A stretch of 64,000 nt of DNA from Daucus carota subsp. sativus (lineage: Eukaryota > Streptophyta > Magnoliopsida > Apiales > Apiaceae): assembly GCF_001625215.2 (NCBI RefSeq), contig NC_030384.2, positions 44,736,390 to 44,800,389 on the forward strand. The letters are read 5' to 3'. Positions 14,701-32,795 of the stretch are shown here, piece after piece; the stretch's first letter is position 1; the number at the start of each line of letters is the position of its first letter. Under the pieces are notes generated by a model. The model saw nothing but the letters and a program-made list of their open reading frames with translations, searched no databases and was not told where the DNA came from. Both the position numbers and the translations under genes were made by a program.

Positions 14701-17119
14701 ATTCTTTGGGTTTTTGATTTATTCTTTTGTGCCTCTTCAACAAGATTTGCCATCCTAGTCACCACACAATCTTCCGGTAGAGCAGTAGTGTTAACGTTTA
14801 AATGACCTACAAATATTATGTAATAGTGTAAAAGATGGGGAAAAACAATTTTACTTAAAACATACATGCATATGCAAAAATAGTTAAGGTGTGTAATAAT
14901 AAAATATTTACCATTTAGATTGATGGTGCCGGCCCAAACAGTGGAGCCAATTTGCTTTGAAACGGGAAAAGATTCACCAGTTAAAGTTTTCTCATCAACG
15001 TCACAGTTTCCTTGTACAACAACTCCGTCAATGGGTATAACATCACCGGGCTTAATGGAGAGAATGGTGTTAAGCTGGACTTGATCAGCATTCACTCTTT
15101 CCCCGGTTTCAGCAATGAATGCCGTTTGAGGAACTATGTCTACGAGAGATGACATAGCAGAAGTAGCCTTGTGACTTGCCTTGAACTCGAGCCATTGAGA
15201 AAATGTGAATAAGAAAACTATTGCCCCAGCTTCAAAATAGTCTTTTAGCACAATTGATCCAGCAACTGCATATACCAAAATAGTTAACTTTCCCACTAAC
15301 CTATTGTGTGTCATTTCTATTCAAATATGTACTGTTGTGTTATTGATGTGTATGCTCTAAAGTGTGATATTGTAGTTGATTTTACAAGTTATTTTTTGAA
15401 GAGCCGATTGAAACCAAACCAAATAGTCTATAGAAATATCATCTCACTCCTTGCCGTACCTTATAATAACTTTCTTAAAATTGCTCAGTAATCCAAAACT
15501 TCAGAAAAATTTGTAACAAAAAAAAGGACGGCTGGAAATGCAATTTAGCTAGCCAGTTTTAATCTCCTAGAAACTACTTTACGTCATGAAAGGCCGGCTT
15601 AGCCAATGTGATTGCAGTGATAGCTTCATACAATAACATTATAAGTGAACATAAGGAGATGAACATATTAAGCAAATAACGTAACAAATATGGCAGGCAT
15701 GTGGAGAGGAAAGTGGTTGGTTGATCTTCTTTCGGTGCATTGCAATCTTAATCAGTCAGTCTTTGTTAAGAATCATAGCAAGGTAAAAGGGGGGAGTGAG
15801 GTACCTGTGATAAGGACAAGAATGTTGATGTTGGAGAGGTTGAAATGGCGTATAGCAGCAACGGCTTTCATGAAAATGGGAAAGATAGCAAGCGCAACAG
15901 CAGCCAGGCCCAGGTAATGGAGAGGACGATAAACATGCTGGAGTATTAAGGTTAACAATACCAAGAATCCCGAGCCTAATACAAACGGGCTTGGCCATTT
16001 CTTCTTGTTATTCTTGTTACTGTTTTCCCCTTCTCCAGCTTTGTCTTTGACACTTGCATTCAATCCTGATTCATTCAGAGCGTCCACTGCAATATAATCA
16101 TGATTTTTACATAACTTAAATTAATATATTCATTCAGAGTATGAATATTATTAAACTAGTTACATCTGCAACCTCCAAAATGTTCCCGCTATGCTTTCGC
16201 ATACTACAGTATATATTACAGGTGTAGTATAGGAAGCTAAAATCAAACCCAAGATTGATGGATATTTTATAGAACTTCCTCGCTCAGACCCAAAAAAATC
16301 CCCGATAACTGTATCCACAACTAATAATGTCCTGTGTTGACCATCCATTGTTGTAACAATCTTTCCACGATTTTTTATAGTCTAAAGATTTAAAACCTAC
16401 TCCCTCCGTCCCATATTTATTCTTCCATTTACTTTTGACATGTCTCTGTTCCATTTTAACTAAAGTATAATGTTTGACATTTTGATATACTAAGGTGTAA
16501 CAAAAGTAATAGTTACATCCAGCAAAAAAAATCAATTCCTATATCAAATTACAGTTTAAAATCAACTTCTTCTTTTTTGCCAGAAGAATCTAAACTTTTA
16601 TTTGATATAAATTTTATAATTATGACTATATTCATATGTGATATTTTTAGTACCTTAAAATGGGTGTTAAAAAATCAAACATCAAGTTAATTGGGGGCAC
16701 TGGGCAGAGACTATATTCTGTTTCCTAACAAAGATGTAATGTTCAGACATGAATCGGAAAAAATTATAGAACTATATTTTATAGACGGAAACCACAAAAG
16801 TAGACGTGAAAAAAGTTGTCACATGATTGTCATGATCATCTCCTGTAACCAAAACAGTGCGACGCTTATTTATAATAGTGCTGTAAAATTAATATAGGAG
16901 CGACTATAAAATTGGGAAGCAGGGAGTAAAAGTGATACCAATTTGGATCTGGGAAATAAGGATGGATTGATGATGAACGATGACAGTTCTTGATGGCACC
17001 ACCACCGTCACTTCCGTCACTCCTGGGAGTGGCTTCAGTATTCTCTCTATTAAAGACGCCTCTGAACTACAGCATAGCCCCGACACATTTAAGTAGCTTT
17101 TTTCCACCTTATTCGTCAT
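11723..17119 (-). CDS. HMA: P1B-type Zn/Cd-transporting ATPase (HMA2/HMA4 type)
   Basis: Eight exons: 17119-16939, 16086-15805, 15265-14912, 14806-14669, 14547-14214, 14078-13876, 13739-13537 and 13354-11723. They sum to 3327 nt, 1108 residues (remembered Arabidopsis HMA4 about 1170, HMA2 about 950). The N-terminal metal-binding motif is GLCCSSE, the GxCCxxE form of plant Zn2+-ATPases rather than the CxxC of copper pumps. Catalytic landmarks: TGE 250-252, CPC 354-356 in a membrane helix, phosphorylated D398 in DKTGT, HP 440-441, GDGLND 599-604, and the [10 protein letters not shown] helix. Residues from about 703 form a 405-residue cytosolic tail with ten Cys-Cys pairs. The family exports Zn/Cd across the plasma membrane, often for xylem loading. 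The exon 4 donor is least certain: the obvious GTGTTA site shifts frame, so I used GTTAGT one base on. Intron 1 holds a lone Stowaway end. Confidence 0.9.
11911..12727 (-). repeat. Four tandem 68-residue repeats in the HMA tail
   Basis: Within HMA exon 8 a unit of about 204 nt (68 codons) recurs four times. On the plus strand the reverse of CCSANQ recurs near 12000, 12208, 12413 and 12619. Each unit carries [10 protein letters not shown]-like, VQQNVA-SES, CHQ(H/R)[16 protein letters not shown] and KSFGE segments. Cys-Cys pairs and His are conserved while linkers drift. One unit reads [10 protein letters not shown] and another [10 protein letters not shown], each losing a CC pair. The frame is preserved throughout, so the array is translated. 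Known HMA4 tails bind zinc through such pairs. Confidence 0.88.
16400..16440 (+). repeat. Solo Stowaway/mariner-type terminus in HMA intron 1
   Basis: A TA followed by CTCCCTCCGTCCCATATTTA at 16400. No matching inverse terminus was found before the intron end, so this is a truncated or decayed copy. Confidence 0.6.
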
Positions 17120-17856
17120 CTCCTGATCGTGAACAAGGGTAAGACATTCAATGATAACAAAGTTAATGAAGCGTCGAATTATATAGGCAGTGTTGTGTGT
17201 ACTGTGCACTGTATACAGTATACACCGTATACAATTACGTATGAGAAGGGGATCTGTGTAATATAACATTGCCAATTTGAAAATTTTACCATTTATTAAT
17301 TATCATATGGGAATTCAGACAAAGACCCTCAAATTTTTTTATTATTATTTTTTCTTAGCAATTGCCATTTAGGGATTTCGATTCAGGATCCTAGAGCATC
17401 TTAAAATTTAATTATTAGCATAGTAAGAAAGTTCTAAATATAAATATAAATTTATATGAATTATAAATAAATAAAAATATTATAATGTATATGCATACAA
17501 TTTATATCATATTCATAATAATTGACTGATTAGATGGAGGGCACATTTAGTCATAAAAGTAGTAAATTTATTCACGCAACATTAAATATAAAAATAAATT
17601 TGAAGAGTTGAAATAGTTATAATATTATTCTATATTTAAAATAAAAATTGTTAAAAATCTATGTGATAACCAAAATTTGATATTATTATGAAGAGTTCGG
17701 ATATCTTATACTATTCTGATATGTGACTTATATTAATATTTATTATTTTAAATGATTATATATATATGTACTATTAAATTTAGATATTAAAATTAATATT
17801 TAATAATGAAAGTATTAACCAAAATTTGTTCATAAACTAAACTTAGACTTCACTTA
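17120..17856. other. HMA upstream region, AT-rich
   Basis: 5' flank of the HMA gene. The open frame extends upstream of the chosen ATG to 17275, but that extension is not metal-binding-domain-like. Beyond 17290 the sequence is very AT-rich, with no motif or coding stretch I can defend. Confidence 0.4.
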
Positions 17857-18332
17857 GAGCATCTTCACCATAAAAATCACTTAGCTAAAATGTAAGTTGG
17901 CACATCAAAAATAAAAAAATACAGTCAATTTGTCAAAAAAAAACTCACACTCCAACCCTATTTTATTTGTCGAACCTCTACAAGTCTGTAAAAAATTCAG
18001 ATTGCGCATCATTTATTACAATATTAAACTAATATATTTTATTTTAATAATTTGAAATATTAATAATATAATATTTTTAAATTGTAACCCACCAATATAA
18101 CCAATTGAAGCACGATTCATTTTATATTGATTAGTTATAATTTAAAAATAATATTTTAAATTATTATAAATAAAATATATTACTTTAATATGATAACAAG
18201 TGATGCACAAAGTGCTGGACAAATATAATCAACTATAAGAGTTTGACTATAATTATAGACGAGATGCGGGTAAATTACTCTTAGATGCTATTGTAGCCAA
18301 CCCGATCGGGGAGCAACCCAGTGGAGATGCTC
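17857..18332. mobile_element. PIF/Harbinger-like MITE
   Basis: Left end TTA then GAGCATCTTCACC; right end GTGGAGATGCTC. About 476 bp. The reverse complement shares GAGGTTCGACAAAT, the AT-rich tract and a conserved AAATGATG(T/C)(A/G)CAATC region with the copies at 4796-5454. The right-hand TTA is not preserved, which suggests age. Confidence 0.65.
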
Positions 18333-18465
18333 CGACAAAGCTTACAAGTACATACATAGATTAACAGGGTGAATCAGTTTTGGTAACATGACATTTTTAG
18401 AAGACAAAATGGTTAGTATTACTCCCTCCGTCCCATTTTAAGTGCTTTTTTAGAAAGGTTTGTCT

Positions 18466-18490
18466 AACCTGTGCCCTCAGGGCACAGGTT
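18466..18490. repeat. 25-bp palindrome near MLE left end
   Basis: AACCTGTGCCCT, a central C, then its reverse complement AGGGCACAGGTT. It sits 45 bp inside the MLE left terminus. A near copy (TGTGCCCT-G-AGGGCACA) is at 22957-22973. Confidence 0.75.
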
Positions 18491-18670
18491 TAAGACATTT
18501 ATTGTATCTTGTTTTCATGCACAGTACCATTGTTAATGTATTAATTACTGATTAGAAAATTGGGATCTTTTTAAAAATACCCATCTGTAAAATTAGTTTT
18601 TTAAAAATACTACCATCTTTTTCATTGTTTTTAAAAATACCTTTTCATAAAAATTTTTTTCCAAAAATAC

Positions 18671-19210
18671 GATTTGCAACTTTTGCAACCTCATTTGCAA
18701 CCTTGGGCGGCGCAGCCGTAAAAGTTGCAAATGAGGTTGCAAAAGTTGCAAATAAAAATGGAAAGTTGCAACTGTTGCAACTGTTGCAACCTTGGGCGGC
18801 GCAGCCGTAAAAGTTGCAAATGAGGTTGCAAAAGTTGCAAATGAGGTTGCAAAAGTTGCAAATAAAAATGGAAAGTTGCAACTGTTGCAACTGCAATTGC
18901 AACTAGTTCAACTGAAAACTGTAAGTTGCAAATGAGGTTGCAAATGAAGTTGCAACTGCAGTTGCAACTTTTGCAACTGCAGTTGCAACTTCATTTGCAA
19001 CCTCAGTTGCAACTAAATGCAACTGAAAACTATATATAGTTGCAAATGAGGTTGCAAAAGTTGCAAATGAGGTTGCAACTGCAGTTGCAACTTTTGCAAC
19101 CTCAGTTGCAACTAAATGCAACTGAAAACTGCAAGTAACAACAGATGTATGGTGTGCCCCTGGCGGGGCCATTAGATTACAATAGAATCAACTGAATGCA
19201 ACCATATGCA
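18671..19210. repeat. GTTGCAA/TTGCAAC short-motif array
   Basis: Dense repetition of TTGCAA in both orientations, in 6-12 bp steps (GTTGCAAATGAG, GTTGCAACT). A block of about 90 bp starting CTTGGGCGGCGCAGCCGTAA occurs at about 18701 and again at 18790. The open frames across it are low-complexity (VATEVAKVATAV) and are not taken as genes. Confidence 0.85.
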
Positions 19211-19251
19211 ACTGAATACAACCATATGCAACCATATATGCAATTACAAAT

Positions 19252-19302
19252 CCTGATTTCAAGTTCCAGTTTTCAAATGTCATTTTCGACCTCATTTTCG
19301 GA

Positions 19303-19390
<88 letters not shown>

Positions 19391-19441
19391 TCCGAAAATG
19401 AGGTCGAAAATGACATTTGAAAACTGGAACTTGAAATCAGG
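19252..19441. repeat. 190-bp perfect palindrome with 80-bp AT core
   Basis: Left arm from CCTGATTTCAAGTTCCAG to GGAATCG (19252-19306), an alternating AT tract 19307-19386, then the exact reverse complement of the left arm to 19441. I found no mismatch in the arms when reading. It can form a long hairpin or cruciform. It lies in the middle of the Mutator-like MITE. Confidence 0.9.
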
Positions 19442-21482
19442 TTGCAACACGGCTGGCGCCGCCTGTAGTTGCAAATGAGGTTGCAAAAGTTGCAAACAGT
19501 ATTTTTGAAAAAAAAATTTTATGAAAAGGTATTTTTAAAAATAATTCTGGAAGGTAGTATTTTTGAAAACAATAAAAGAAAAGGTAGGTAGTTTTGTAGA
19601 TTTCCCTAGAAAATTCAAATGTTCACATCTATCAAGAAAACTTGATTTTTCATTTACTTTTGTATTGTATTATATTTTTATTATTTATATTATTTAATAA
19701 TATTAAAATAATAAAAAAAATCATACATTTGTTATTAAATATAAAATTGGTTGATTCCGTTAGGAGGCTGATTTTAATTAGAAAATTAATGTATATGCAG
19801 GGGGGCTTGTTATTATTTGTGGGTTGAGATCAATTAAAATTTATTTTATACTCGATTAAAATTTAATAAAAAAAATATCTTATGATCCCCACATTTTTTG
19901 AAATAAAATAATATTTTGTCATAAGTATAAAATGTGAAAGATAAGTTATAAATAGAGTATATAATCTACTTCTATATATTAAATGGCAACCAAGGGCAAA
20001 AAGAGCAAATAAAATGGCTGTGAAATATCTATTATACCTCTATATTAATTGTAATTACAAAATTACCAATAGATGACTCATTTATTATATTTGATATATT
20101 GAGTATTAGTAATTAATACATTTACATAATAAATATCTATTTAATTACCTTTGTCACTTATTTATGACCGCTCATTAAAAAAAATATATATGTGAATTGA
20201 ATTTGAGATATTTAAACTAACTCTCATGTAAACTCTACGATCATAACTATTAAATTAAGATCTCTTGATTCTCATTTTATCAAAAAAAATATAATTTTTT
20301 TTATGTGCGGATATCTCAAATTAATTTCGATTTAACTTAGTGTTGGTTCGAATATTATAATTAATTAGTTTTTATATTTTTAATGGAGTGATTTTGTTGA
20401 CTAATCTTTTTTTTAATCTCATACACGTGTGTGTGCTTGTGTGTGTGTATAATAATACAATCATATTTATTAATTTAGAGTTTTACATTAATTATTGACA
20501 CTAAATTTCATAACAAATAGTAGATTTGTTACGTCTTGTGTTAAAAAGCCGGAGTACAAATTTTTTGTTTTTGGCATATATCTTGTGATATAAAGAATAT
20601 GATTGGTGACGGTGTGACGGTGTTCAATAAAACCTCTAACACTCAAGTGGCAAGTCAATTAACAGCTAACTGATATTCTAAAATTTGAATTTCAATTTGA
20701 CTTGTTAAGCCTATTGAGTAACGAGTACTCATTTTAGTTGAAAATTACTTATTTAAAAAAATGGATATATTTATAAATTGATTTTAGATATTAAATCATT
20801 AATATATATATATATATAATAATTTATAGTTTATATTATAATATTATATAAAATTTTACAAATGTTAGATAATTATGTTATCATGTGAAATTTTTTCCAT
20901 TTTTAACTTGTTCTTTATTTTTCAATTTAATGTATAATCCAAGTTGCCCCGATTTATTTATTTTTTGGGTAAATGAGGACTACACCATGTAAAATTTTAT
21001 ACCAAGAAAAGAGAATTTACAACGAGAGGACTACTCTCAAATTAAAATCTCGAAAAACACATCTCAAAGAGGGAGTGTCAATAGAAACTAAAATAACAAA
21101 ATTTCTAACCGAGAAAAGAAGTTTTTGAATCGAGTTATGTTTGAGCTTTATCCGAGTTAAACTCAAAATCGAGTTACCGATCAAATTAATCGAATTTTAA
21201 TTAATATATTCCAATAGTTAACTATTAAACAAATAATCATATATAGATTATTATATTAAAAAAGGTCCATTGGATATCGATAAACTCCGATCATAAGGTA
21301 ACAATAGGGTATTCAAGAGTCTATCGACATGTTAGGTATCTACTCATTATAATAATAGCATGGACTTGGATGGTATTAAATATATATGAATAATAATCGT
21401 ATCGTGATCTGAATTAGAGATTTCAGAATTGGAGTTAGGTATGTTAGAAATAGATTCTAATTTAGATATATTTAAGATGACT

Positions 21483-21748
21483 CCACGAAATTACTGTGAG
21501 AGTCAATTGTGAAGCTACTGATTTCGGAGGAGATGCAGGTTGGATTGAACAAGAAACCATCATCTTCGTTTTTAATTTTCAGAATATTTGTATTCAGTCA
21601 GTTAAGCAATCCGAAAACAAAGCGGCTAATTATTTAGCTCGTTTATTTGTTTTTCAACCTGGTTGCATGATCAATTGGGGGTTTGTCCCGATCGATTGAG
21701 TCTCTTTCGTATTAATGAAATCTGCTCTAAATTTTGGCAAAAAAAAAA
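21483..21748 (+). mobile_element. 5'-truncated L1-type LINE tail
   Basis: Flanked by 9-bp AAGATGACT repeats (21474-21482 and 21749-21757), with a poly-A tail at 21739. The frame reads VKQSENKAANYLARLFVFQP then NWGFVPID, resembling the C-terminal RNase H region that plant L1 elements carry (NKAA..LAR motif). Only about 250 bp of the 3' end was inserted, typical of truncated target-primed reverse transcription. It lies inside the Helitron. Confidence 0.75.
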
Positions 21749-22139
21749 AAGATGACTATATATACATAATCATATTTTCTCTATTATTTGTGTTCAAGAT
21801 GTAGACTTGAGTATTATTTGAGAGCGGATGCTTGAGTATGTTAGGCTTGATTATCATAATTTGATTGATTGTATTATTGATACGAATTTGAATCTCATAT
21901 TTATTAATCCTAATTCAACCGAGTGATGTCACTAACTGATAATTGATTGATAATTAGTAAAACACGCTGATGAGTAAGATATATAAATATATAGAGATTT
22001 ATTTTAAAAAAAGGGGGTAGGAAAGAAAGAGGGAGGGAAAAATAATAAGTATCAACAAGTATTATATTTATCTTAACTATATGGTTGCCTCTTGGCAAAA
22101 AAAAAACTATATGGTTGCCTCTTATAAGCATGTTTTATA

Positions 22140-22451
22140 CTCCCTCCATCCCATTTTAATTGACACTTGTTCCTTTTTGGGACGTCCCAAAAACAATGAA
22201 CCTATTAATCTTACTATTTTTGAACACTACTTTTCACTATTACACCCACTACTTTCTTCCACTATCTCTATTCTATAATAACATAAACATTATTACCCCC
22301 ACTACTTTCCTCCACTATCTCAAATCTATTATTAAAATTTTGATGGGTCCCACCACTTTATCAACTTTTCAACTAATTTAATCTCTTTTATTACCTTTTT
22401 CTTAATCTCCGTAAAAGTCAAAGCAGTTCAATCTTTTCGGGACGGAGGGAG
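22140..22451. mobile_element. Stowaway MITE
   Basis: 312 bp with ends CTCCCTCCATCCC and CGGGACGGAGGGAG flanked by TA on both sides. Interior contains GATGGGTCCCACCACTTTA, also found in the copy at 44020-44300, so the two are one family. The terminus resembles that of the mariner-like element around it, which could supply transposase in trans. Confidence 0.9.
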
Positions 22452-22956
22452 TATATTATGTCCATCAGTGTTCGAACTTATCTCTTTTTAATGATCGTAG
22501 CACATGAACATATTAAATCAGTTTTAATTATCCTACTATTTCATGGGTTTGCTTATATGATTCACTCAAACGCGCCTATAATTTTTATCGTTTATAAACA
22601 CATTTTATTATGTTTGATTGAAAAACACGCTGAAAAATTGCAATATAAACCTCTTTCATATGCAATTTTACAGTGTCAATTCGAGCTATATGGAAATTTG
22701 TCAGTTATGTTGAATCAGTTATCATGGATATTATTAATTTATTCTAAAAAATATATCTAAAAATTCAATAAAATTAATATTTTATTAAAAATATTCAAAA
22801 TTTGAACTATTAATCAAAATATACTATATAGAAAATAATTTATAAATGACGGGTCCGTGCCTCGCATGGGCTTTTACGCTAGTTAGTATATATACACATA
22901 CACTGATACTTGTGCAAGTCAAAAGAACACCTAATGATGGTAATCATGACTTATCC

Positions 22957-22973
22957 TGTGCCCTGAGGGCACA
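22957..22973. repeat. Second copy of the TGTGCCCT palindrome
   Basis: TGTGCCCTGAGGGCACA followed by TGTTAGACATT, resembling the right side of the palindrome at 18466-18490 (GTTTAAGACATT). It lies about 75 bp past the Helitron 3' end, within mariner-like sequence. Confidence 0.7.
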
Positions 22974-23630
22974 TGTTAGACATTCCGTTTTTAGAATAGA
23001 GGTGGTGTTCCAAATTAACTGCTGTTCTCACATTTCCACAAAATATAAGATTATCATTTCCAGCTTTACCCTTATTAATGAGTCTTTATGTCTGTCAAAC
23101 TGGTTTGTTAGTATTCCGTCTCCAGTAAAACTCAATTTGCTTTCATACACATCATTGGACTGTACTACTTTGAATGAGTATTGAAAAATTATTGTTTAAT
23201 GAAAACAATATTTATAAAAGAAATACTTTTAGATTGTTAGATTTTTTAACAAAAAAGAGTACCAATATATTCTTAAAATATATAAAATCTAACAAAAAAA
23301 ATTAAAATTAATATTAATACATAATTTATTTTTTATACACTATAAATGTAAAGTTTTTAATATTACAAATTTAAACCTGAAATAAAAAAAAATAAAAAAT
23401 ATTATCAAGAAAACAAAAATAAAATAAAAATAATTTCATGCATGCATTCATAAGGGTTCAGTACAATTTTAAATTCAACTTGTAAACTAAAGTACTACCA
23501 CCACGATAAACAGATCAGATAACATTAGGCCAACAATCTCTGTGTTTCTTCTATCAACTTCAGATCACAGCTAAGTTGGCTAGGTAATTTCTCATCCTTT
23601 TCCAACCTTTCTTTGTTCATATGTGGAATT

Positions 23631-25092
23631 TTATATCAATTGGAGCCTTGTGTCTTCATGAATCATGACTTCTAACATGCAGGATTGTAACGTCAAAAAA
23701 AATTTGTTTAACAGTTTAGGTGAATATGCTTCATATGCATCCTCAACTGCCGCAATAAGATCATCAATGGTTTTTGGTGCCACTTTATACCGTAAGGATT
23801 GAATAGCACTAAAATACGTTTAAATCCGGAGAATTAGCGGGTTGGCACATCAAGCGAATGTCAAAACCACCTTGTCTTGCAGCTTCACAAAATTCTGGAT
23901 CACTAGGATCAACATGTGTTCTTGCGTTGTCCTGTTGTATCACGATTAACTTATTAGCATCATCACTTGGCCATTTTGATCGAACCGATGGAAGGACTTT
24001 TTCAATTAAGAACGACCTTATTGTACTTCTCCCCACAGATGTCATCGCTTTTGTTTCTATGGTCCCTGCAGCTCTGTTGATACTGTTTCTTTTAGCAGGC
24101 TCTTTTGTGACAAATGGATAGATTCCGATTTTTCCAGAGAACTTTACATTGCCTTCTGAATCGAATCTTGGGCGAGCAACCGCAGCAAGGAACATCACTT
24201 TCTCAACAAAATTTTTACTTTTACACACACGATGTGGTTCCTCTTCATCAGCAACAAGATAATATGTTTCAGACTTTTTTGTCATATTAAACCATTTCTC
24301 GTCAATATGGATGATATTGTCCATGTCGATGAATTGTGGTTGATGAGGCAAGCTGTTTATATCGATCATTGATAAGCAAAATTGTAGCCTGGCTTTTTTG
24401 TTCTCGTCCTTCAATAAAGGTTTGATGGCATTGGAGTGACGACGGATTTTCCCAGTCTCTAAAGCTCGATGTAGTGTTGATGAACTAATTTTGAGGGCAT
24501 TAGCTGTAGATCGAACAGTGGTCCGTTGCTGCAAAGGAATGCTACGGAATGCATCAAGATCAATCTGGATTCTTTTCCGACCACAGTTGTTTGTTCTTCG
24601 ATGAGATACATCACCACCTGAATTTTCTTTGGATCTTTTCCAGATGCGTTGAACGGTACTCATGGAGACAGAAAATAATGCTGCAACAGACTTTGTTGTA
24701 TCTCTTTTAAGTTTACCGTTCACGCTTCTTCGCAGCAAGGCTATATATATGTCCTTCCTTTGATCATTTGATAGATTTTTACATGTTGAAACGGCAGTGT
24801 TTTCTCTTGAAAGAGTGAAACTCATATCTTCACCTGCACAAAATAAAGGAGAGACACATAAGAGTATATATCAATAACAAAACATGCTGTCACAGAGAGA
24901 CACTATCCAATGAAATAAGCGACAGTAAATATAAGTAATACTCCTACCATCAGGAGGTGGTGGTTCATTGAGATCAAAGTCTCTTGCGTTCTCTTCGACG
25001 TCAACTTCTTCTGCTTCTTCATTTGTGTGGCTTCCTTCATGATTTTCTACTTCAGTTGGAGGAATATTCAAGTCAAAATAATGGAACTCCAT
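23631..25092 (-). pseudogene. Plant mariner (DD39D) transposase, inactivated
   Basis: Two exons: 25092-24948 and 24833-23631, joined G|GT to give PPPPDGGEDMSFTLSREN. The N-terminus has FDLNIPP and FDLNEPP. The body has a helix-turn-helix region (SNDQRKDIYIALLRR and SVAALFSVSMSTVQRIWKRS), first Asp in IHIDEKWF and second in IVIQQDNARTH. The third catalytic Asp of the DD39D triad should be in SPDLNVLDLGFF, 39 residues after the second. Here the DNA goes from SPDLNV straight to FSAIQSLRYKVAPKT with about 14 nt missing near 23812, which removes that Asp and shifts frame. The remainder to EDTRLQLI and a stop at 23631 is otherwise open. One visible break suggests fairly recent loss of activity. Confidence 0.88.
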
Positions 25093-26208
25093 AATCCAAC
25101 ATTTAGATTTAATTTTATTCTCAAGAAAACTTGTGTTACGCAAATGAACTTTTATAAGCATGTGATGATCTTGGTGGGAAAAATTAAAAAAATAGCGGGA
25201 AGATTTAAAATATGGTGGGAAAGATTAAAATAATTTGGGAAAGAGAATGGTTAAAAAATGGTGGGAGAAATTTAAAAATTTGTGGAAAATCACAGGGGGA
25301 AGGAGAAAGGTTAAAAAGATGGAGGGAAAGATTAAAAGAAGTGGGTGACTAGCCAAGCTAATATGAGTGGTGGGCAATATTTAGAGCAAATTTTCTTGAA
25401 TAATCTTCCAGTGTAAAATCAAAATTCTAATTGATGTGCATTTGCACATGATATAAAAATATGTAGTTATGGACATCAATTACAAAAATAGTTACAATTT
25501 TATTAAATTAAAGGCATAAGCAAATTTTTTTATTATTTCTAATTATAAGTTGGGTTATAATCTAAAATAAAATTTTTAATTTTTAATTATTAATTGAGTT
25601 AATATCAAAAAATATATTTAAATTTGAATTTCTATATTTAATTGTTAGTGGAGTTAATATTCATGATTATATAAAATTATATTTCTTTAGAAGTGAAACT
25701 TAAATATAAATTTCTTTCATTATTTTAGTACGCATAAGTGTCATTTTTTTTTAAATTAAATTTTGTCTTAAAAAATGAAACATCAGCAAATGTATATGAA
25801 GCGCTCTCATCCTACCACTTTGTGTATGAAACGTCAATGCACAGCTAGTACTCCTTCTGGCATGATTTTCATTTTGTTTGATTAGCGTGTTTTTGACTCA
25901 TTAAAGAATTCTATTTAATAAGGGTATTCTTGTAAACCTGTACTCATATTACTCTCAATTAATGTCAATATTGGTCTGTGTGCAAATTTCTAAAAAAGCA
26001 GTTAAAATGGGACACAGAGGGAGTATAAACTATTAAGAATAGTGTAGAAGGAGGAACCATAGCAGACGATCTAAAATTAAATAACCCACCATGTAAGACA
26101 GATAAACGGCGGCTACTTGTCTTAATCTAGCACAAAAATAGATCCTATTTGCTACATCTCCATCTGTTCCGGGCAGTGTTTTACAAGTCCCTGTCTATTA
26201 TAGACATT

Positions 26209-26428
26209 GGGGCCGTTTGGCCAAACTTAAAAAAATGATTCCATACTTAAAGTTAAGAAGTGGAGTAGAAGTGAAAATTAAATAAGTGAATAAAGTGTTT
26301 GGAAAAGAAGCAGAAGCTGTGAGACAGAAGCTAGCATTCTCGGCTTCTTAAAAATGCTTCTACTTCTTTACACAAACGGGTCAAGAAAAGCAGAAGTCAG
26401 AAGTTGATTCTCCTTACCAAACAGCCCC
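26209..26428. mobile_element. MITE-like inverted repeat, family unsure
   Basis: Ends GGGGCCGTTTGGCC and CCAAACAGCCCC, about 220 bp. Subterminal AGAAGCAGAAG and CTTCTACTTCT motifs are also inverted. The flanks could give a 3-bp ATT duplication, but this is ambiguous, so no superfamily is assigned. Confidence 0.55.
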
Positions 26429-27004
26429 ATTATATTCAATAAGCCGTCAGACCTTCGAGAATGTTTGAGATATTTTTCAGCTCTTAATTAAGAACATTGA
26501 TTAGATTATTAATCATATATTATAGTTCTATTAATTACACTCAATCATAATTTCTTAGTTTAATTATAAATAATATATTTAATTATTTAAATTTATATAT
26601 AATTTATCATTTATTAGGAGTCTTAAACGTAATTATTAACTAATCATTAATATCTTTTAATTTTAATTAGTATTAATATTATACTTCTGCTTGAGATTTA
26701 TATTATAAAATATAATGTGCTAGAACATAATCTAAGTTATCGGATGTTTAAAAATATTATACAATAAAAAATAAAATTTAGATGACTAGGTTATATTTTA
26801 CCAAATTTTATACTTTAATATTTCAATATTTTAGTGTACTACATAGAAATTGGCCCTATGTTTTTTATTAATTATATATAATAATTATACACACATATAT
26901 ATAAATTAGTGAGAGTGAAGTAACGTTAAGGAATAATTTTGAAGTAATATTTAATATCAAAATAACTCCAATCAACTGATTAGTGTGATTACGACGTATA
27001 ATAA
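26429..27004. other. AT-rich intergenic
   Basis: Very AT-rich, no coding stretch or paired termini recognised. Confidence 0.35.
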
Positions 27005-27421
27005 TCTATACTATAATATAATAAGCCAACATAGGTTTAATTTGTAGTCGTATAAAATTTTGGTTTGGTCATCTCTTTTATAACTACATGTCGGTCACAT
27101 GTAAACTTCTTTTACTCTTACCATATTAAAGAGTTTTATATCTTTCAAATTACAAACACTTGTGATGTAATACAAGATAAAAAAACTCCACCATTATTCT
27201 TTTAAATATAATTTATATATAATTTATATATTATATTATAATAAACCGATATTAGTATAATTCGTAGTCGTCCAGAAAATGTAATCAGTTGGTAAATATA
27301 ATCTGGTTAAAATCTAATTCATTAATACTAAAATACTAATAAGATGATGTTAAAATTTAAATTCTAATTAATAAATTACGAATTTTTTACCCGCACGTGC
27401 TTCGCACGGGTTAAAGGCTAG
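27005..27421 (+). mobile_element. Short non-autonomous Helitron
   Basis: 5' end A|TCTATACTATAATATAATAA at 27005. The 3' end is the hairpin CCCGCACGTGCTTCGCACGGG minus its last bases in length terms (positions 27390-27410), followed by TTAAAGGCTAG|T. The hairpin stem CCCG(C)ACGTGC/GCACGGG and the CTAG end are textbook Helitron. 417 bp, no coding capacity. Confidence 0.8.
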
Positions 27422-31200: not shown

Positions 31201-32795
31201 ATACTTTAAAATCTCATGAAGAGGCCTCACTGTTTCAGCTGTTAGTACAAGAATACTTATGTTTGCTTAAATGCCTTTAAATAGTTCTCTACTGATCTGT
31301 TGAGTAGCTTTATAGTTTTAAATGTTACAACTGTACATTTCAGTGAACCATAAATTATATATTCTTGTGAAGTAAATTTTATATTGGTGGGAGAATTCCA
31401 CTTGTTATAGTGCCATTTAAAGACTTAAAGGGTTGAGCCGTTGAGGGTAATGCTTTCAGCCAAAACTTCTTAATTTACTTTTCTATATCAACAATCGAAT
31501 ATTTATGGATACAATGACTTCGTCATTGATTAAAAAGCGAAGTTGCTTTTTTTTCTTTTTTTTTTGATATGCAAGTTGGTGGCAGTTGGATGATTAAATA
31601 TTTCTGTATTCGTGATCTAGAGCCAATAGTCGATAAGCTCATAATTCTAATTGCTTCAGGATATCCTACATACAAACATAAAAGAAACTGTATAAACGCG
31701 AACATGTGTAATTTTTTATTTATCTAGTATCTACGGAAGTACGAAAATATGCACAATATTTTTCATCTTGTTAAACTGTTTTTCTTTCTCAATGTCTGTT
31801 TTGCAGCCTACAGAAATGCAGAAGATATGAATCATCATTCAGTTTGCCTGCATGTTCTTGCCGATTCCATTAGAAGGTCTGAAGTTCATATGTTTTTTCC
31901 GGATAAGTCTTTTTCTGTCTCGCATCACAAACATACTCGCATAGACACTTTACACACAGTGTGTGATGTTTTAGTAATCCCATATTTGAACACCTCAAGC
32001 TGACTTGCTGTTGTTTCTCAGTGCAGGTGTCATCTTAGCTTCCTTCTTGTTGACCCTTGGGTAAACAACATTTTCACTAGATTTTTCTTTTCTTTTTTGG
32101 CTGAGTAATTTTCACTACATACAAGTTTGAAATAATATTCAGTGCTTATACTTCACTCAGTGAGATGTCCATATTCTGCAGGGTTGAAAATGCTGAAGTG
32201 TTGTGTTTGGGACTAGTTGCAGTTATGGTATTTATGCTAGTTATGCCACTTTTCAGAGTTAGTGGTGGTGTCTTGCTTCAAATGGCACCTCCCAGCATAC
32301 CAGCGTCAGCCTTAGGTAAATGCCTGAGACAGGTAAATACTAAATACCAAATACTAATATCCTGTCAGTGTTAGATTGTTGTGTGAGAGTATTTGATCAT
32401 TCTTATGTTAGTTTTGTGATATTTCTTTAATAAATATCAAATGAGTTGACAGTAATTTATATTTAGGTCAATTCTCGTGAAGATGTTGTGGAAGTTTCTC
32501 AGGCTCGCTTCTGGGAGTTGGTGCCAGGCCATGTTGTTGGTTCGCTCTCAGTCCAGGTAGGTTACATTGCTACATCTATTTGTGATGTGATTGATTTTAA
32601 TTTTTTTATTCCACTTTAGTTCAGTGGTTGCTTAGTTAAATATATATAAATAATAAAACAAATATAAGTTTATTTTGGTGGCCTTTTTAACAGGTGAAGA
32701 AAGGTACAGATGAACGGGCAATTCTGGAATATGTGCATCACTTGTACCACGATTTAGGTGTTCAGGACCTGACAGTTCAAACTGATTTTGCCTGA
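28237..32795 (+). CDS. MTP5: Cation diffusion facilitator, metal tolerance protein 5
   Basis: Ten exons: 28237-28732, 28813-28921, 29046-29085, 29437-29513, 30883-30971, 31807-31876, 32022-32060, 32182-32332, 32467-32556 and 32694-32795. Total 1263 nt, 420 residues. Residues 1-130 are a Ser/Pro-rich hydrophilic extension, followed by the CDF membrane domain (ISLNVAYSTAELCIGLVTGR, LFLLFMSFSLAVEALHAF, HYLIISAVTNLLVNLIGVWF) and a C-terminal domain ending YHDLGVQDLTVQTDFA. The TM5 metal site is complete (H286-x3-D290 in HVLAD). In TM2 the site reads H173-x3-G177 (SDAFHLTFGCG), so the usual Asp is Gly. From memory Arabidopsis MTP5 has the same feature and acts as a heterodimer with MTP12 in Golgi zinc loading, as ZnT6 does with ZnT5. 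Intron 4 holds a hAT MITE and a MITE lies just upstream. Confidence 0.92.
29652..30337. mobile_element. hAT-type non-autonomous element in MTP5 intron 4
   Basis: 686 bp with ends CAGTGTTATTAAACGCG and GCGCGCTTTTAATAACACTG, flanked by 8-bp AAGTGCAT at 29644-29651 and 30338-30345, the hAT target length. Both ends are rich in GCGC/GCGCAT motifs. On the minus strand around 29830-29985 a frame reads LEYDEEDFVKDPNYISKDAD then FLNIDDEEVEEWTKFE, a likely transposase C-terminal remnant. Confidence 0.85.

Follow-up and report, generated by a model that had tools for sequence, protein, structure and literature searches.

Several groups of transposable elements have been described for carrot (Daucus carota subsp. 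sativus) that are close counterparts of the repeats analyzed here, which form a stack of nested insertions at positions 18422-26023 of a stretch of 64,000 nt (contig NC_030384.2, positions 44,736,390 to 44,800,389; this whole stretch is called the window). The carrot mariner-like elements, named Dcmar, comprise 11 copies with a length of 1922-4940 bp, and the motif named for the mariner transposase is DD39D (PMC6881990). Dcmar1 was described as the likely source of DcSto7b, which is another family, and the terminal inverted repeat (TIR) printed there is unlike that of the window (PMC6881990). The DcSto Stowaway miniature inverted-repeat transposable elements (MITEs) of carrot are of the same kind as a 312-bp Stowaway in the stack and as MITEs of about 280 bp with a mariner-like end (PMC3695323; PMC6881990), and nested insertions into DcSto elements have already been published (PMC3695323). 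For the Mutator-like MITEs of carrot, a mean length of 429 bp was reported (PMC8227079).

The stack in the window is considered to be a real nest of six elements on four levels, formed by successive insertions, with a probability of about 0.94; as a nest it is ordinary but deep. A mariner-like element is outermost and contains a Mutator-like MITE, here called X. X in turn contains a foldback Mutator-like element and a Helitron, and the Helitron contains a truncated long interspersed nuclear element (LINE) and a Stowaway MITE. The order of events follows from the nesting: first the mariner, then X, then the foldback element and the Helitron, and into the latter the LINE and the Stowaway. Only the relative order of the levels is given in this way, not that within the third or the fourth level. 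A preliminary description of the window had recognized the nested stack with the mariner as its outermost element, and all target duplications that it named are present (TA, TAGAAAATT, AAGATGACT and the TA of the Stowaway), as are the Helitron ends between A and T. Its order was off by one layer, since X lies between the mariner and the remainder. The elements have visible boundaries and duplications, and the sites of X, the foldback MITE, the Helitron, the LINE and the Stowaway are found empty elsewhere in the same genome (searched assembly of 441,086,747 bases in 11 contigs). The corrected nest thus closes at five joins in same-genome relatives. For X, the LINE and the Stowaway, the joins match the relatives far more closely than the control loci, and the Helitron join is statistically the weakest.

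X is delimited by the genome-wide matches of the left end of the stack (18400-18575). Most of these either stop at window positions 18455-18457 or start at 18454-18458 and run to about position 162 of the query, and a few cross the boundary by some bases. The matches are of two kinds: the stopping set represents ends of Stowaway or mariner elements, and the starting set represents another element, X. The same places as in the starting set are matched by 19607-19965, which separates the foldback MITE from the Helitron. For example, C2:51503984-51504105 is followed by C2:51504097-51504454, with an overlap that consists of just the 9 nt TAGAAAATT. After subtraction of the foldback MITE, one duplication and the Helitron, a unit of 560 bp is obtained. 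Within the span of X (18456-22987, no strand assigned) its pieces are located at 18456-18552, 19616-19964 and 22883-22987. The target duplication TTTTTAGAA is found on the left at 18447-18455 and on the right at 22988-22996 (both on the + strand), and the chance match of one given pair of 9-mers at the local base composition was calculated to be p ~1.7e-5. Target duplications of Mutator-like MITEs are 9 bp in length, as is that of X. By the length of its duplication and by its ends, X would be classified as a Mutator-like MITE, and it fits those described for carrot in its inverted termini and its missing coding capacity (PMC8227079).

The insertion site of X in the mariner could be identified in one relative on contig C2, L069, which is in reverse orientation. 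There, the left mariner end passes directly into the sequence that follows X on the right (22997-23074), as one continuous match of 114 bp with 98.2% identity, which contains a single copy of TTTTTAGAA. The 42-mer across the join has 1 mismatch in L069 versus 16-18 in 7 control loci; the mariner join free of X would read ...CTTTTTTAGAATAGAGG... This continuity speaks against the explanation that X joins two different elements and has the stub of some unrelated Stowaway, with the CTCCCTCC end, on its left, a view that fits the short length of 34 bp left of X and a TIR that is common to several Stowaways. Since TTTTTAGAA stands on both sides of X as well, and both TIRs of the mariner have CCCATTTTAA.TGCTTTTTTAGAA in common, such a stub is regarded as very improbable compared to a single mariner interrupted by X. 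At L069 (C2:58167900-58169700, about 942-1055), the identity is 100% over the inner 87 bp, followed by an abrupt divergence.

The relatives of X decide on the number of levels. Over the compared columns, L042 is 98.0%, L043 96.8%, L040 96.2%, L048 96.1%, L044 95.5%, L041 95.3% and L047 95.0% identical to X, followed by L045, L046, L052, L054 and L056 with 77-92%. Six of them (L042, L043, L040, L041, L044 and L048) run straight across both internal joins of X with a length of 558-568 bp. In the end-motif test, which covered 17 of the 20 X-relative loci (L057-L059 were left out), both ends were identified in 9 loci, of which 7 have an exact 9-bp duplication of their own. None of the 12 X copies with printed flanks is flanked by mariner sequence.

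In the preliminary description, a nest of three levels resulted from taking a mariner of about 3.6 kb as the immediate host of both the foldback MITE and the Helitron. The two CTCCCTC ends and their TA are real and the named target duplications do close. However, the intervening pieces form the 560-bp X, of which several near-full-length copies exist elsewhere with different flanks and, in 7 of 9 cases, their own 9-bp duplication. A three-level nest is thereby already refuted, and we see next to no chance for it: in the four-level nest, both insertions sit in X. Consequently, the mariner does not close to about 3.6 kb, as its own sequence comprises 34 + 3027 = 3061 bp, and the leftover of about 0.5 kb, assigned to the mariner before, is in fact X. 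Closure at these target duplications had been expected from a mariner relative that lacks the MITE or the Helitron, but such a relative cannot provide it in this form, because the flanks of both insertions are part of X. The layer was missed because the pieces of the missed element resemble filler of the host element.

The first of the two elements in X, the foldback Mutator-like element, is located at 18562-19606 (1045 bp, GGGATC...GATTTCCC, no strand assigned) and is flanked by TAGAAAATT at 18553-18561 and 19607-19615. It contains an array rich in TTGCAA and a perfect palindrome of 190 nt with an (AT)n centre. Compared to the carrot Mutator-like MITEs, it is longer than usual and rich in TTGCAA palindromes (PMC8227079). 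Other copies have a length of 884-1069 bp, and an exact 9-bp target duplication was found in 5 of 6 relatives (L005 has none; L002 was left out). With 40 places scored out of 930 first-look candidates, the window included, the copy number is a lower bound. The 1054-bp insertion is carried by 0 of the 12 aligned X relatives. Across the MITE join, the 30-mer is found without mismatch in 6 of the 20 X loci and with at most 3 mismatches in 12 of 20, compared to 8-12 in all 9 control loci, which do not contain X.

The single-strand DNA folding of 18662-19500 resulted in -311 kcal/mol, compared to a mean of -102 for 20 shuffled sequences (z -36.9). The perfect palindrome lies at 19252-19441 with an AT run of 80 nt at its centre. 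Many other foldback copies match its right half in inverted orientation at 90-100%, which suggests that the foldback family as such has the palindrome.

Plant non-autonomous Helitrons begin with TC, end with a hairpin and CTAG, and insert between A and T without a target duplication. The copy in the window, at 19965-22882 on the + strand, is alike. It is 2918 bp in length (2329 bp without inserts) and has the TC start, the hairpin and CTAG end, the A/T site and constant ends in its copies. At the 3' end, 22 of 41 other matches stop 1-3 bases beyond 22882, whereas the rest are slightly longer or shorter. One relative that matches in the ends only (C7:13460190-13462560) has the same TC and CTAG between A and T with different flanks. 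The empty join in X (marked by a slash) reads TATATAA/TTAGTA in 8 of the 12 aligned X relatives, of which L052 has extra bases just right of it; L046 reads TATATAA/TTAATA, and L045, L054 and L056 are altered there. In an ungapped scan, at most 3 mismatches of 18 were found in 13 of the 20 X loci, compared to 4-5 in the 9 control loci.

Plant L1-type LINEs that are truncated at the 5' end have a poly(A) tail, a 9-bp duplication and longer relatives, and this applies to the LINE in the Helitron as well. Its 3' end with the poly(A) lies at 21483-21748 on the + strand, between two copies of AAGATGACT (21474-21482 and 21749-21757), and it is 5'-truncated in comparison to longer copies. In all 12 relatives fetched from a list of 39 others, the shared sequence continues 5' of the truncation point. 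A short interspersed nuclear element had been suggested by 36 of the 39 other matches starting at query positions 7-14, and was ruled out by these 12 copies; the common start arises because the LINE part of the query begins there. For a 72-aa frame in the LINE, the Pfam search revealed no match, and we read this frame as the RNase H-like end of ORF2. With 8 control loci for the joins of both fourth-level elements, the LINE join has at most 3 mismatches in 4 of 6 Helitron relatives and 10-13 in the controls. The relatives L073 and L074, with 7 mismatches, lack two bases of the TATA run that directly follows AAGATGACT.

The Stowaway MITE (22140-22451, 312 bp, no strand assigned) has TA at 22138-22139 and 22452-22453, CTCCCTC ends and many copies of constant length. 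Among the 40 of 2356 candidates that were scored, self included, 39 other near-full-length copies with 93-96% identity and one partial piece were found. Of the 6 Helitron relatives, 5 have at most 2 mismatches at its join, compared to 10-16 in the controls. The placement of LINE and Stowaway inside the Helitron in the preliminary description is in agreement with these empty sites. Another copy of the same Helitron (C7:38471662-38473194) contains a Stowaway of the same family at a different site (C7:38472340-38472645), which is an independent nested insertion.

A number of observations weigh against the four-level nest. The empty mariner end was found in a single relative, L069, over only 114 bp; the search of 4.3 kb for a second mariner terminus downstream of it was negative, no partner end was seen in about 3.5 kb beyond its end, and the genome search revealed no long relative of the mariner as a whole. 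On the left of X, only 34 bp of mariner are present. Among the X relatives, 8 of 17 loci do not have both ends by the pattern used, L041 has no duplication, that of L056 matches in 8 of 9 positions, and that of L044 is a plain A run. At the MITE join, 8 of the 20 X loci have 5-12 mismatches and overlap with the controls, due to an indel in L047 and to divergence in the others. At the Helitron join, which is A/T-rich and short, 7 of 20 X loci resemble the controls with 4-6 mismatches. Finally, the Stowaway site of L076 has undergone a rearrangement, with 16 mismatches. That the stack is an assembly artefact, a chimeric join of repeats in a single assembly with a perfect (AT)n palindrome that is hard to assemble, has a negligible probability, since chimeric joins would produce neither family-typical target duplications in five elements nor a Helitron at an A/T site.

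The proposed course of the four-level nest begins with the mariner-like element, which would have entered at a TA. X then entered the inner edge of the left inverted repeat of the mariner, thereby duplicating TTTTTAGAA. In a third step, the foldback element, under duplication of TAGAAAATT, and the Helitron, between A and T, inserted into X independently of each other, before the 5'-truncated LINE and the Stowaway entered the Helitron. The elements probably took the routes usual for their families: cut-and-paste transposition in trans (MITEs and X), a rolling circle (Helitron) and target-primed reverse transcription (LINE).

The mariner-like element itself (18422-26023) spans 7602 bp with its inserts and consists of 18422-18455 and 22997-26023. 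Its assignment to the plant mariner-like elements of the Tc1/mariner group is consistent with the TA target on both sides (18420-18421 and 26024-26025), the CTCCCTC inverted termini and a related transposase. The TA-flanked termini lie at 18422 and 26023 as described before, with the minor correction that the right terminus reads CTCCCTCTGTGTCCC and not CTCCCTCC.

The transposase remnant is located on the - strand at 23809-25224 and comprises the two open pieces 24871-25224 and 23809-24870. For the latter, PF24964 (1e-24) and HTH_Tnp_Tc3_2 were identified (6e-7; 30.0 bits, slightly under the cut-off of 31.5), whereas the Pfam search of the former revealed no family. Directly after SPDLNV, a 14-bp deletion has shifted the frame and eliminated LD from the DD39D motif. 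The sample aligned here comprised L010-L023 (14 of 29 fetched copies), whose protein pieces are 53-74% identical. All 14 have letters at the gap of the window copy (L012 is one base short), and the eight printed translations read LDLGF, LDHGF or LDLDF. According to the DD39D rule and our own counting of residues, the deleted residue would be the third catalytic Asp. The complete triad, which is needed only for activity, is absent, and with this Asp lost the mariner is probably immobile by itself. The nearest long relative was found to be 73% identical over about 1.2 kb. A motif search for pairs of TIRs around the transposase copies L010-L038 identified one end in 6 of 29 loci and two facing ends in none, within the fetched flanks.

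The mariner of the window resembles Dcmar in its TA target, CTCCCTC termini and mariner-type transposase, but its right TIR CTCCCTCTGTGTC misfits the published search mask CTCCCTYYSKYMC, the site of the third Asp is deleted and the span with inserts is 7602 bp (PMC6881990). To judge from TIR, span and lost Asp, the 11 Dcmar copies probably do not include it.

The right terminal 67-120 bp of the mariner match 39 other places at 76-88% (40 of 71 candidates were scored, self included), of which 34 end at most 4 bp from the TA at 26025 and 20 exactly there. The left TIR is 89-97% identical to the ends of sampled MITEs. In 4 of seven sampled loci (L060, L061, L065 and L068), Stowaway MITEs with a length of 276-281 bp, counting both TAs, were found. 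Both of their TIRs are mariner-like, and one end resembles the right mariner end further inward. L062 is mariner-like in the first ~28 bases only, and the pattern found one end in L063 and L064. It is conceivable, although we consider it rather doubtful, that the lineage of this mariner, which does not seem to belong to the published Dcmar set, was the parent or former mobiliser, now dead, of the carrot Stowaway family of about 280 bp, and that the stack above the mariner is young.

In a comparison with 8 relatives over 558 positions, 6 substitutions are private to the window copy of X, which differs from L042 at 11 of 558. With a substitution rate of 7e-9 per site per year, the upper age bound for X and the later insertions is roughly 1.5 million years with a wide error.

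Each component is a known kind of element, and the nest is provable rather than surprising. In searches of the literature on carrot nested insertions, Helitrons and transposable elements, no description of the stack was found; carrot, nested insertion, Helitron and transposable in combination gave a single match, which concerns orchids. The stack is a compact worked case of five successive insertions, for each of which the same genome offers an empty site as a check, and it illustrates that a layer may escape a reading by eye even when the target duplications are correct. Its wider use is modest: it provides one upper age for five insertions and one more damaged mariner among the candidate mobilisers of carrot Stowaways.

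The stack had been described as lying between two zinc transporters. The left gene, on the - strand, has matches to PF00122 and to ATPase-IB as well as a heavy-metal-associated domain at 16904-17299 and is, judging by these matches, a heavy-metal P1B ATPase. The right gene (28210 onward) may be a CDF-type zinc transporter, with a weak CDF hit for an exon at 32105-32374 (E 0.084). For its first exon, no Pfam or NCBIfam match was found, and a PDB match with E 1.9 is meaningless.

Directly left of the mariner, a MITE-like stretch is located at 17857-18333 with the inverted ends GAGCATCT..CC and GG..AGATGCTC, for which no clear target duplication was seen. Outside the stack, a second Helitron-type 3' end was found at 27390-27421, where the hairpin CCCGCACGTGCTTCGCACGGG is followed by CTAG and a T. 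Just right of the mariner, a Tourist-like MITE (GGGGCCGTTTGG...CAAACAGCCCC) lies at 26209-26428, flanked by ATT at 26206-26208 and 26429-26431.

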